The position numbers and the translations under genes are program-made. The notes under the pieces were generated by a model, which ran no database searches, had not been told where the DNA came from, and was given only the letters and a program-made list of their open reading frames with translations. A stretch of DNA of 64,000 nucleotides from the NCBI RefSeq assembly GCF_024347535.1, contig NZ_AP025498.1, positions 1,178,001 to 1,242,000 on the forward strand. The letters run 5' to 3'. This stretch comes from Vibrio kanaloae. Its GTDB lineage: Bacteria; Pseudomonadota; Gammaproteobacteria; Enterobacterales; Vibrionaceae. This document shows positions 36,092-39,775 of this stretch, in pieces; the stretch's first letter is position 1; each line of letters begins with the position of its first letter.

Positions 36092-37138
36092 TTACAAAAT
36101 ATTCAGCCCAAATAGGTCTTTAACCTCAAACAGCACTGATTCAGTTCTCTCTTTCGAGACCTGAGTGCCTTTACGTAAGATATCGATAAGCTGTGCTTTA
36201 TCATCTAAAAGCTCAGCTCGTCTTTCGCGGATTGGACGCAACATATCTTGCAGGCACTCTTCCAATACTTTCTTCGTCTGACCATCGCCTAACCCACCTC
36301 TTCGGTAGTGCTCTTTTAGTTCACTGATATAGTTAACGTCAGTATGAAAAGCATCAAGATAAGTGAACACTATATTCCCCTCGACGTTGCCAGGGTCTTC
36401 AATTCTTAGATGAGTTGGATCGGTATACATAGATTTCACAGCCGCCCGAATTTCTTTCTCTGTTGCACCTAAATTAATGGCGTTACCCATTGATTTAGAC
36501 ATCTTGCTTTTGCCGTCGGTGCTAGGAAGACGAGAGGCATTACTTAGCAGAGGTTTACACTCATTTAAGATTGGCGGACCCGCGAGTGAGTTTACTTTTC
36601 TCACTATCTCATTGGTCTGTTCTAGCATTGGCAATTGGTCGTCACCAACAGGAATCAAGGTTGCATTGAACGCCGTAATATCGGCAGCTTGAGAGATGGG
36701 ATAAGTCAGAAAGCCAGCAGGAATTGAGCGCCCAAATTCTTTGTTCTGGATTTCGCTTTTCATGGTTGGGTTACGCTCCAACCGAGCGATAGATACAAGG
36801 TTGCTGTAGAACATAGTGAGTTCAGCCAGTGCTGATAGGTGTGATTGAAGGCAAATCGTGGTCTTGGTCGGATCAATGCCCACCGCGAGATAATCAGCCA
36901 CCACATTGAGAATGTTAGACGAAACCTTTGCTGGATTATGGGCGTTATCAGTAAGCCCCTGCATGTCGGCAACCAGTATCGTTTGGTCGTGAATATGCTG
37001 CAAAGAGACTCTTTGTTTAAGTGAACCGACGTAATGACCTAAATGCAAAGGCCCAGTTGCTCTATCGCCAGTCAGAATGATTTCAGGCTTGTTGGTATAG
37101 CTGTTGCTGTCGATATGGCTGTTTGAGTTGGTATTCAT
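36092..37138 (-). CDS. trpS: Tryptophanyl-tRNA synthetase, attenuator-controlled paralogue
   Basis: 348 residues of the class I synthetase fold. The HIGH motif is GPLHLGHYVG (about 29-38) and KMSKS lies at 212-216 (GKSKMSKSMGNA); IPVGDDQLPMLEQ is the family's tRNA/Trp pocket segment. It charges tRNA-Trp. Vibrios carry a housekeeping trpS elsewhere, so this chromosome II copy is likely the inducible second enzyme (inference). The start has GGAGATACACC upstream, and that ribosome-binding site can pair with TATCTCCA about 25 bases before it. A Trp-Trp leader peptide lies further upstream. Confidence 0.92.
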   Translation of the reverse strand: MNTNSNSHIDSNSYTNKPEIILTGDRATGPLHLGHYVGSLKQRVSLQHIHDQTILVADMQGLTDNAHNPAKVSSNILNVVADYLAVGIDPTKTTICLQSHLSALAELTMFYSNLVSIARLERNPTMKSEIQNKEFGRSIPAGFLTYPISQAADITAFNATLIPVGDDQLPMLEQTNEIVRKVNSLAGPPILNECKPLLSNASRLPSTDGKSKMSKSMGNAINLGATEKEIRAAVKSMYTDPTHLRIEDPGNVEGNIVFTYLDAFHTDVNYISELKEHYRRGGLGDGQTKKVLEECLQDMLRPIRERRAELLDDKAQLIDILRKGTQVSKERTESVLFEVKDLFGLNIL

Positions 37139-37250
37139 GGTGTATCTCCAAGTTAAAAAGGCTACTGGAGATAAAAAGAGGCGACATTTTTGATGACATT
37201 CTTAGCTACCGTCCAGCAGCTAAAGAATGTGAGTATTCCGTGCTGCTCTG
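37139..37250 (-). promoter_or_regulatory. Predicted attenuator between the leader peptide and trpS
   Basis: Mutually exclusive pairings follow the leader peptide on the transcript. Segment 1 UGCUCU (the last leader codons) pairs with AGAGCA (2); AGCAGC (2) pairs with GCUGCU (3); and CAUUCUUUAGCUGC (3) pairs with GGUAGCUAAGAAUG (4). Stalling at the Trp codons would free 2 to pair with 3. The 3:4 hairpin lacks an immediate U run, and a further pair UAUCUCCA/UGGAGAUA covers the trpS ribosome-binding site, so control may be partly translational. Confidence 0.6.
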
Positions 37251-37301
37251 TTAAGAGCACCACCAAAAGAAAATTGAAGTTGAAGCAGAATTAAATTTCA
37301 T
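37251..37301 (-). CDS. Trp leader peptide of trpS (16 residues, Trp-Trp)
   Basis: ATG at 37301 opens MKFNSASTSIFFWWCS followed by TAA. Two adjacent TGG codons (37260-37265) sit three codons before the stop, directly in front of the first hairpin, exactly as in attenuator leaders of amino-acid genes. TTGATAAG with AAATTTAAT-type sequence upstream could be the promoter. No strong ribosome-binding site is evident (AAGTTTTAACC). Confidence 0.7.
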   Translation of the reverse strand: MKFNSASTSIFFWWCS

Positions 37302-37388
37302 GGTTAAAACTTATCAACAATACTGACGAGCGACAACTGTTATTTACGCGCACCAAGAAAATAGGTTTAAGATTAACAGGTTATAGGC

Positions 37389-38189
37389 TTAATCGTTACT
37401 GGTACACAGTTCAGTGATTCGGTCACACATGGCTTGATTGACTGTAAAGTGGGTGTTGAGGAACGCTAATTGGGCAAGTGCCGATTCAGCAGTACGCTCG
37501 TAACCTTGTGTAAAACTTGGTAGCAATTGAGCAAACTTAGGAAAGCGTACTTCTAACCTTCTATCAGACATAAATTCATCAACGAATTCAGGCTCAGGCT
37601 GTTCAGTTTGATCCACAAGATCGATCAAACGATCGAGAGCGTAAGATTGAACAAACCGACTGCCCGACAGTTTTTCGCCTCGGTTATAACGAGACATGCC
37701 GACATAAAGATTGGTTAATGCTTCGCCTATGATCCACGCTTGCGAATTAACTTCTGCCGTGCCCTTTTGTGATGGGATACAGCACTGAGTATCAAATTCA
37801 GGTCGCTGCCAAACTATGCGCCCTTCAGCAAAGGGGATATGCGCTAACTCGTGGGGTTCAAACACCGCAAACTCGCAAAAAATTCCGTCGGCGTACAGGA
37901 CTTTATAGCCATCGACAGTATTTCTCACCGCGTAGTCGATTGGGTGAATATCAGATAGCCAATGCAAACTGTCTAAGAAATACTGCTTGTGCCCTGTTTG
38001 TACTATCGCGAAAAAATCGACATCTGAATACTGATCAAGTCGCTCCGTTTCAATACCTACTGAGCCCAATCCCAATAAAGCATGAGCCTTACTCGATGCT
38101 TCCAAAGACTCCCCGATTGCATCTAAACGCTGGAGTAATTTTTCTGGTGTGTTTATGTGTCTTGTCTGCATCACTTTATCCGTTTGCAT
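37389..38189 (-). CDS. Nucleotidyltransferase-fold protein, aminoglycoside adenylyltransferase-like
   Basis: 266 residues. LGLGSVGIETERLDQYSDVDFFAIV (about 41-65) has the polymerase-beta nucleotidyltransferase signature GS...D-x-D (SDVDF). The C-terminal half is helical (EALTNLYVGMSRYNRGEKL), as in AadE/LinB-type enzymes. It may adenylylate a small molecule; resistance to an aminoglycoside or lincosamide is possible but not shown. AGGAATTAAGCA precedes the ATG. Its neighbours are unrelated. Confidence 0.75.
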   Translation of the reverse strand: MQTDKVMQTRHINTPEKLLQRLDAIGESLEASSKAHALLGLGSVGIETERLDQYSDVDFFAIVQTGHKQYFLDSLHWLSDIHPIDYAVRNTVDGYKVLYADGIFCEFAVFEPHELAHIPFAEGRIVWQRPEFDTQCCIPSQKGTAEVNSQAWIIGEALTNLYVGMSRYNRGEKLSGSRFVQSYALDRLIDLVDQTEQPEPEFVDEFMSDRRLEVRFPKFAQLLPSFTQGYERTAESALAQLAFLNTHFTVNQAMCDRITELCTSND

Positions 38190-38443
38190 TGCTTAATTCC
38201 TATCAAGTTAAATGCCACTCAACCTAACTGATAGTTAGAACATCTAAGAAGTTTAATTTATAAAATGTGTGTTTTGGATAACGATCTGCGCAAGTTATTG
38301 TTTAAGTTACGATGGGAATTAGAGGTGAGAAAGAGTGTGTTCAACCGATAAACAACACTCTTCTATCATGACTTATCTTTTAACCGCTGATATTTATAAC
38401 AGCTTCTCTTTGTAAAAAACATTAGCTCATAAAAGCTTGGGGG

Positions 38444-39775
38444 TTAAACCGATGACTTAGCTAAGTAAGCTGCCATTTCTTGTGATGGCACCATGCCTCC
38501 GCCTGTCGCCCACACAAGGTGTGTTGCATTCGCTAGAGTCGACTCATCAATTTCTAGACGAGCAAGGTATTCACTATTTTGCTCAACATGAATCGCACCC
38601 GGCATACCCACGAGTGCTGAAGGCTCAAGTTGAATACCCTCTGCTTGGTTCAGTTCACCTAGTAGTTGATACATGCGTTCATCGGTTAATGTGTAATAAC
38701 CATCAAGCAAGCGCTCCATCGCTCGACCGACAAAGCCAGATGCCCTCCCCACCGCTAAACCGTCTGCGGCGGTGAGGTTGTCGATACCAAGATCTTGCAC
38801 CGCAATCTCATCATGCAAACCGGTATGAACACCGAGCAACATACAAGGTGAATGAGTCGGTTCAGCAAAAATACAATGGACATGATCACCAAAAGCCATC
38901 TTCAAGCCAAATGCGACACCACCGGGCCCACCACCTACTCCACATGGTAAGTAAACAAATAATGGGTGCTCTTTATCTACTGAAATATGTTGTTGCTCAA
39001 ATTGCTGTTTGAGCCTTTGCCCTGCCACCGAATAACCAAGGAACAAGGTTTGCGAGTTTTCATCATCAATGAAAAAGCATCGAGGATCTTGTTCTGCCTC
39101 TTTACGTCCTTGCTCCACCGCAACGCCATAGTCTTGTTCATATTCAACAACGTTGACGCCATGCTCACGAAGTTTGCTTTTCTTCCAAGCTCTCGCGTCT
39201 GCCGACATATGAACAGAGACCGTAAAGCCCAATTTGGCACTCATGATACCGATCGACATGCCTAAATTACCAGTGGAGCCTACCGCAATGCTGTATTGTT
39301 GGAAGAAGTCACGAAATTCAGGTTCGAGTAACTTACTGTAGTCATCACTCTCAAGCAGTAACCCAGCTTCAATCGCAAGCTTCTCAGCATGCGTTAGTAC
39401 TTCATAGATACCACCGCGCGCTTTGATTGAACCTGAAATCGGCAAATGGCTATCTTTCTTCATCATCAAACGCCCTTTGATAGACTGCTGATAATGTGCT
39501 TCCAATACTGATTTCATAGATGGAATGTCAACAAGCTCAGACTCGATGATGCCATTGGTCACTTGAGTTTCAGGAAACGCCTTGGCTAGGTAAGGAGCAA
39601 ACCTTTGTAACCTCATGCTCGCATCGTGAATATCTTGTTCGCCTAATCCCACATAGGGTAAACCTTGCTTCAACGTCGTGATGTTTGGGTTAAACCAAGT
39701 CACTTCTTCCAAATCAACTAACCGTTGAAGCAATGGGAAGTCTGAAATGAGCTTGTCAATATTCAATACAGTCAT
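38444..39775 (-). CDS. dsdA: D-serine dehydratase (ammonia-lyase)
   Basis: 443 residues, the same length as E. coli DsdA. The PLP lysine lies in [17 protein letters not shown], followed by [20 protein letters not shown] phosphate-binding turns ([16 protein letters not shown]) and [14 protein letters not shown]. It converts D-serine to pyruvate and ammonia. No DsdC-type LysR gene or DsdX transporter stands beside it; instead the remains of an MFS transporter lie upstream on the other strand. Confidence 0.95.

Follow-up and report, generated by a model that had tools for sequence, protein, structure and literature searches.

The gene trpS2 of Vibrio kanaloae, which codes for an auxiliary tryptophanyl-tRNA synthetase (TrpRS), is preceded by a leader that is likely to act as a ribosome-mediated translational attenuator, sensing the charging of tRNA-Trp and controlling the production of this enzyme. 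Leader and gene are located on the minus strand of the analysed DNA stretch of 64,000 nucleotides (referred to as the window, whose positions are used throughout). The Trp-Trp leader is no artefact; it is found widely among gammaproteobacteria and is under selection.

As the initial annotation had proposed, the gene downstream of the leader (37138-36092, minus strand) encodes a second tryptophanyl-tRNA synthetase. Its product of 348 aa is closest among solved chains to 1yi8/2a4m (E 2.5e-102), which we take to be the TrpRS II of Deinococcus radiodurans, and it scored 226 bits on TIGR00233 (trpS), above the cut-off of 176.75. Judged by its closest solved relative and by the trpS signature, the protein can be classed as a TrpRS II of the D. 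radiodurans type. A housekeeping-like TrpRS copy resides on another contig of the genome and shares 30% identity with the trpS2 product.

The leader peptide ORF (MKFNSASTSIFFWWCS, 37301-37251, minus strand) was recognized from the sequence and its relatives. It comprises 16 codons from the ATG at 37301-37299 to the TAA at 37253-37251 and, as originally described, harbors two adjacent TGG codons close to its end (37265-37260, minus strand), the putative stall site. To follow its conservation, 227 genomes of the Vibrio genus were searched, in which trpS2 was found to be patchy. A near-full-length copy was present in 87 genomes, and in 86 of them it was preceded by a leader with tandem TGG near its end, the peptide usually terminating in ...WWRS or ...WWCS. 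In the sole exception (G198, also represented by L043/L181) the 5' end of trpS2 and the leader were lost; by eye, this truncation adjoins an apparent insertion-sequence end at the contig edge. Altogether, the Trp-Trp leader with its TGG TGG was detected in 125 of 126 trpS2 loci examined, a set that includes second copies, remnants and named contigs partly repeating the same genomes, and that comprises 101 different versions of the interval between TGG and the trpS2 start. The leader peptide measured 16-20 residues in 100 of the 101 distinct leaders and 36 residues in one. A leader-specific DNA pattern gave 91 matches in 89 of the 227 genomes and none in the reversed control. Eighty-eight matches correspond to leaders in the loci collected beforehand, three more (G066, G113, G166) precede a broken trpS2, and two of the collected leaders (G102, G171) were missed by the exact pattern. 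Within the Vibrio genus, the pattern marks only trpS2 or its remnants (91/91). Leaders still in front of broken or partial trpS2 genes were seen in L246 (G066), L247 (G166) and L248 (G113), in G002 and G069, and in second copies of G108 and G149; at such loci, gene decay seems to precede the loss of the leader.

Further afield, the leader was absent by the same criterion from 44 distant loci (L069-L112), which belong to Cupriavidus, Firmicutes and others and include a partial match of Vibrio ostreicida. An order-wide sample of 394 genomes yielded trpS2 matches at E<=1e-80 in 65 genomes spanning 20 of 114 genera. Of 58 further loci (54 genome loci outside the genus and four stretches of a plasmid collection), 48 carry the leader, which is missing in L190, L198, L199, L212, L230-L233 and in the Acinetobacter and Rhizobium stretches. 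It was found in the families f2, f6, f7, f10, f12, f13, f19 and f25 as well as in E. coli and Klebsiella plasmid copies. Family f25 is Aeromonas-like, judging by a named A. caviae record with a nearly identical leader, and f19 was taken as enterobacterial because its leaders resemble those of Klebsiella and E. coli. The leader is known from Photobacterium, Alteromonas, Moritella, Aeromonas and enterobacterial relatives. By tblastn, 95 records of the plasmid collection were matched, 46 of them with at least 60% identity; some are chromosome-sized, but the records also include plasmids of 150-270 kb from E. coli and Klebsiella. Three stretches (L234, L235, L237) place trpS2 on plasmids: the E. 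coli copy, close to IS26 and IS1, and the Klebsiella copy each have the leader, whereas the Rhizobium copy, flanked by two IS6-family transposases, lacks it. The plasmid copies represent a mobile spare synthetase.

A promoter was predicted immediately upstream of the leader with the help of the relatives (37308..37336, minus strand). It consists of a -35 region TTGTCG (37336-37331) and a -10 region TAAGTT (37313-37308), separated by a 17-nt spacer ending with TGA, and only 6 nt lie between the -10 region and the leader ATG. An alignment of the 101 distinct loci anchored at this ATG disclosed TTG near -35, the 17-nt spacer and an extended -10 region TGnTAgnTT. T at -35 and the TG extension were each present in 95 of these sequences, and the distance from the -10 region to the ATG was 6-8 nt in 97 (6 nt in 73, 7 nt in 20 and 8 nt in 4), while the six bases just before the ATG contained at most 0.26 bit of information each. 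In the 48 further loci, this distance was 6 nt in 25, 8 nt in 17, 7 nt in 2 and another value in 4, and TG occurred in only 25. A Shine-Dalgarno sequence was not seen for the leader ATG, whose anti-Shine-Dalgarno pairing amounted to -0.99 kcal/mol versus -1.65 kcal/mol for shuffled sequences and reached -5 kcal/mol or lower in 11 of 101 leaders. The corresponding value for trpS2 was -6.76 kcal/mol, with 99 of 101 reaching this limit. The promoter spacing puts the predicted transcript start at the leader AUG; together with the missing Shine-Dalgarno sequence, this makes it probable that the leader peptide is leaderless. A generic promoter scan of 36800-38600 did not list the predicted promoter. 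Upstream of it, on the same strand, lies an ORF of 266 aa (37389-38189, minus strand), nucleotidyltransferase-like as judged by eye, which stops 52 nt before the promoter. Since the scan of 36800-38600 revealed no terminator between this ORF and the promoter, read-through into the leader is possible, in which case the leader would not be leaderless.

The RNA downstream of the Trp codons can be divided into six segments of the minus strand. Segment 1 (UGCUCU, 37254..37259) pairs with AGAGCA of segment 2 (37235..37249). Segment 2 also offers AGCAGC to GCUGCU of segment 3 (CAUUCUUUAGCUGCUGGA, 37212..37229), and helix 2:3 is continued by an inner part GGAAU/AUUCU that the initial annotation had not listed. 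Segment 3 is a site of competition between segments 2, 4 and 5. With segment 4 (GGUAGCUAAGAAUG, 37197..37210) it forms helix 3:4, CAUUCUU-u-AGCUGCU/GGUAGCU-AAGAAUG, which has one bulged U and a GGAC loop. The apex of this hairpin includes a Shine-Dalgarno mimic GGA(C)GGUA (37207..37214), which pairs with UAUCUCC of segment 5 (UAUCUCCAGUAGC, 37161..37173), at once an anti-Shine-Dalgarno sequence and an alternative partner of segment 3. Segment 6 (37143..37149) is the trpS2 Shine-Dalgarno sequence GGAGAUA, and helix 5:6 (UAUCUCC/GGAGAUA) extends across it. The overlapping stems 1:2, 2:3 and 3:4 and the pair over the trpS2 ribosome-binding site, which the initial annotation had reported, are all in the sequence. 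The region 37120-37320 (minus strand) folded with -49.2 kcal/mol compared to -36.3 kcal/mol (sd 4.1) for 200 shuffles (z -3.2), none of which was as good.

Pairing of these helices was determined in the aligned leaders, with columns numbered from the first TGG of the reference L120. Paired cells made up 98.2% in 1:2, 96.2% and 88.6% in the outer and inner parts of 2:3, 80.3% and 90.8% in the outer and inner parts of 3:4, 95.3% in the mimic:5 pairing, 96.7% in the extension of 3:5 and 93.5% in 5:6. Shifting the partner by 1-3 columns lowered the pairing of every helix. Because related sequences inflate such counts, each column was simulated 1000 times on the trpS2 gene tree (4 of 101 sequences partial), with its changes preserved in number and kind; for 3:4, the two outermost listed pairs were left out of the count. 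The observed pairing was reached by none of the 1000 simulations for outer 2:3, outer 3:4, the 3:5 extension (observed 0.967, null 0.690) and the whole antisequester, i.e. the helix of segment 5 with the 3:4 apex, and by 15 for inner 2:3, three for inner 3:4 and nine for 5:6. Helix 1:2 (367/1000) and the mimic:5 pairing alone (143/1000) were not significant against this null. Double compensatory changes exceeded expectation in outer 3:4 (7 vs 1.09), inner 3:4 (3 vs 0.16) and the 3:5 extension (3 vs 0.17); 5:6 exhibited none in the 101 leaders. In L160, a C-to-U change at base 47 of segment 3 is accompanied by G-to-A changes in all its partners, at 23 in segment 2, 60 in segment 4 and 93 in segment 5, so that all three alternative helices are kept. 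Independent changes are few in these short helices, and an APC-corrected covariation test of single pairs on the leaders' own tree gave no significant pair (best E 1.5).

Helices 2:3, 3:4 and 5:6 are kept beyond the tree-based null. The initial annotation had made its attenuator dependent on conservation of the TGG pair and covarying stems; the codon pair and these three helices stood up to this examination, while 1:2 and the covariation of single pairs did not reach significance. With TGG TGG retained at nearly all loci and selection acting on the mutually exclusive helices 2:3 and 3:4, the architecture of ribosome-mediated attenuation was recovered. The leader might also be a conserved relic without regulatory function, or it might be controlled by a Trp-binding protein instead of a ribosome. 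Leaders that persist before broken trpS2 copies speak for a relic, but tandem TGG codons and pairing compensated in three partners at once would not survive in one, and we regard this reading as very improbable.

The pairing of segment 5 (37173-37161) with the 3:4 apex GCUGCUGGA-n-GGUA yields a continuous helix of 13 bp with one bulged base, in which GGA-n-GGUA imitates the trpS2 Shine-Dalgarno sequence GGAGAUA. This antisequester, which links the stall to the ribosome site, was absent from the initial account, as was the leaderless promoter arrangement. An earlier reading, in which only segments 4 and 5 paired, was replaced by the continuous helix. For a test independent of the alignment, the best duplex between the mid-leader and the segment before the Shine-Dalgarno sequence was compared with shuffles. 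Of 143 distinct leaders, 124 reached p<=0.05 and 100 reached p<=0.01. The former value was obtained for 73 of 79 Vibrio leaders, 13 of 20 in f25, all nine in f19 and 15 of 18 leaders of other genera from the first search for relatives; p stayed above 0.05 in 19 of the 143, in one case (L235) because the stretch did not have the length needed for the test. In f19 the duplex is built of different letters: GCCGGAAG pairs with CUUCCGGC in L202, and GCCGAAAGG with CCUUUCGGC in L223. Automatic picking of the 3:4 hairpin had chosen wrong hairpins in seven of seven f2 leaders and in some f25 and non-Vibrio leaders, and the apex:5 test was redone without any choice of hairpin.

The initial annotation had guessed that the final step acts on translation instead of transcription. 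The window agrees with this: helix 5:6 over the Shine-Dalgarno sequence is well kept, and no terminator-like site exists on the minus strand within 36800-38600, the only one found being far away on the other strand. In the absence of such a site, we read the output as translational. Terminator-like features in some relatives had not been foreseen, and they raise the alternative that 3:4 is an intrinsic terminator and 2:3 an antiterminator, as in the trp operon, with the Shine-Dalgarno hairpin being secondary. A terminator-like 3:4 hairpin was present in all 20 f25 leaders, in five of nine leaders of f19 and in the single E. coli plasmid copy that was scored, and by a looser count at least six T in eight bases within 3 nt of 3:4 were found in 44 of 101 leaders. 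Against such transcriptional attenuation, the terminator rule itself was passed by only three of the 101 leaders of the main set, and only one of 18 distinct leaders with the WWC ending of the window had the U-rich tract, though the same rule detects the terminator of the trp operon leader in this genome (C1:1920848). Moreover, the conserved helices 3:5 and 5:6 would be left unexplained, and we consider purely transcriptional control unlikely. It is somewhat less improbable, yet still doubtful, that two locks are combined, namely premature termination at 3:4, perhaps assisted by Rho, and hiding of the Shine-Dalgarno sequence, in proportions that vary by lineage, the window clade relying mainly on the second. 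The wide distribution of the Shine-Dalgarno and 3:5 pairings and the lineage-variable terminator features suit this combination, but the window has no terminator-like site, and outside the window the proposal overlaps with the translational reading.

A third arrangement would make 3:5 itself the terminator, given the U-rich CUUUUUAA downstream of it in the window, and would make 3:4 the antiterminator. Even though at least six T in eight bases follow the 3:5 helix in 42 of 101 leaders, this terminator would shut the synthetase off just when tRNA-Trp is uncharged, its loop is long, and the U-run is missing in L160, L163, L166, L167, L200, L203 and L223, which keep 3:5. We give this arrangement hardly any chance. 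The window copy is best read as translational, and related lineages may use both locks.

Stepwise folding was performed with the 101 growing leaders, whereby refolding was allowed only below a barrier threshold. The bases that a ribosome would cover were masked, either up to position 14 for a stalled ribosome or as for one at the stop codon. At a barrier of 9 kcal/mol, the stalled mask resulted in 3:5 in 67 and 5:6 in 21 of the 101 leaders. With the ribosome at the stop codon, 3:5 appeared in 2, 3:4 in 99 and 5:6 in 89. At 7 kcal/mol, 3:5 and 5:6 were formed in 49 and 34 leaders under the stalled mask compared with 8 and 80 at the stop codon; 53 sequences switched the right way and seven the wrong way, and a stalled mask to position 16 rather than 14 gave 46 and 36. 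The contrast was weak at 5 kcal/mol (28 right way, 15 wrong way), where stalling produced 3:5 in only 16 of 101. At equilibrium nearly all leaders were OFF in every state, the stalled mask still giving 5:6 in 80 and 3:5 in seven of 101. If the switch exists, it must hence be a kinetic one that operates during transcription. The window leader adopted the full 13-bp antisequester together with inner 2:3 when stalled, and 3:4 with 5:6 when the ribosome was at the stop codon. In its stalled fold, the Shine-Dalgarno sequence was still drawn in a small 4-bp hairpin. Among the first six sequences folded, the predicted switch was seen for L001 and L120 but not for L160 and L163, while L055 and L166 showed it only in part or not at all. 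By sequence, the leader has both a hairpin hiding the Shine-Dalgarno sequence and, from 3:5 covariation and the masked folds, an alternative helix that would release this sequence upon stalling.

In the mechanism that we infer, the transcript would begin at the leader AUG, and a ribosome would load at this 5' end without a Shine-Dalgarno sequence and read the 16 codons. If Trp-tRNA is plentiful, it would reach the stop codon and cover segment 2; 3:4 would form, later segment 5 would pair with segment 6, and the trpS2 ribosome site would be hidden (OFF). If Trp-tRNA is scarce, the ribosome would stall on UGG UGG and cover only segment 1. Segment 2 could then engage segment 3 and block its zipping with segment 4, and the open 3/4 apex would capture the emerging segment 5, leaving segment 6 free for the translation of trpS2 (ON). 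Uncharged tRNA-Trp would in this manner induce the synthetase.

The trpS2 leader is a variant of ribosome-mediated attenuation and not a new category. Work by Vecchione and Sello from 2010 is said to have placed the gene of an auxiliary antibiotic-resistant TrpRS of Streptomyces under ribosome-mediated transcriptional attenuation. Like trpS2, that gene specifies an additional TrpRS and is preceded by a Trp leader and an attenuator, but the Streptomyces system was reported as transcriptional and belongs to Actinobacteria, whereas the trpS2 leader occurs in gammaproteobacteria, hides the Shine-Dalgarno sequence by means of mimic and antisequester, is probably leaderless and has no terminator-like site in the window. 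Attenuators before trpS were also predicted in some Streptomyces, according to PMC1262725.

In a printed alignment, Gln60 of the trpS2 product stands opposite a His of the solved chain 2el7. From the motif, this His is presumably H43 of the Bs enzyme, the positions being taken as equivalent. Exchange of H43 to Asn in a Bacillus TrpRS leads to indolmycin resistance, as stated in PMC4899734. A TrpRS kept in reserve, unaffected by an inhibitor and switched on when tRNA-Trp is uncharged, would be a counterpart of the Streptomyces system. A Salmonella gene named trpS2 (STM4508) was raised 2-fold in biofilm together with trp genes, as PMC2805695 reports.

The genome also possesses a trp operon leader at C1:1920848, recognized by Rfam as Trp_leader (RF00513). 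In this leader (L173), Trp occurs in two pairs (NWWRTWTSSWW), and the terminator is good. The attenuator of the trp operon employs the helix logic of 1:2, 2:3 and 3:4, which the trpS2 leader shares along with a WWR leader peptide; the former has a clear terminator and is recognized by Rfam, whereas the latter is not recognized. No Rfam family matched in the window, and RF00513 and RF00230 were also unmatched in nine relatives. As is predicted for the trpS2 leader, the RNA of the trpL attenuator of Sinorhizobium meliloti is leaderless and begins with the ATG of the leader peptide (PMC7298713). It differs in being a transcription attenuator of trpE(G) in an alphaproteobacterium.

In translational attenuators of the erm type, which respond to antibiotics, the ribosome stalled on the leader determines whether the following ribosome site is accessible. 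The rtpLP-rtpA system of B. subtilis senses uncharged tRNA-Trp by translation and works by proximity to the next gene; we know of no three-way hairpin with a Shine-Dalgarno mimic in rtpLP. Control of the next ribosome site by a stalled leader ribosome is what both have in common with our model of the trpS2 leader. T-boxes (RF00230), which sense uncharged tRNA before relatives of the same enzyme, differ by binding the tRNA directly and were not matched here. They precede TrpRS-II-type relatives in nine of 13 distant loci searched (L076-L081 and L084-L086, mostly Firmicutes). Related genes are consequently preceded by two RNA sensors that detect one and the same signal but are unrelated to each other, the T-box in Firmicutes and the Trp-Trp leader here. 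Amino-acid attenuators are well established and, to our knowledge, nearly all of them end in a transcription terminator. The trpS2 leader instead seems to start with the very first transcribed base and to finish at the ribosome site of the following gene. An account of the Vibrio trpS2 leader was not found in the openly accessible literature, and a prior description elsewhere is possible.

A more far-reaching picture, which we put forward tentatively and would not yet favor, is that of a 5'-terminal tRNA-Trp charging switch throughout the gammaproteobacteria. It would combine a leaderless peptide, a three-way competition of arms with an apex imitating the Shine-Dalgarno sequence and a naturally drug-insensitive spare TrpRS, and leader and gene would travel as one self-regulated cassette from chromosome to plasmid and back, staying silent unless the housekeeping TrpRS failed or was inhibited. 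The large set of natural variants, ranging from terminator-like to terminator-free, makes it possible to examine directly how transcriptional attenuation and its translational counterpart interconvert. If the proposed control is true, the spare TrpRS would be a self-contained backup, switched on only when the charging of tRNA-Trp fails, e.g. under a TrpRS inhibitor.
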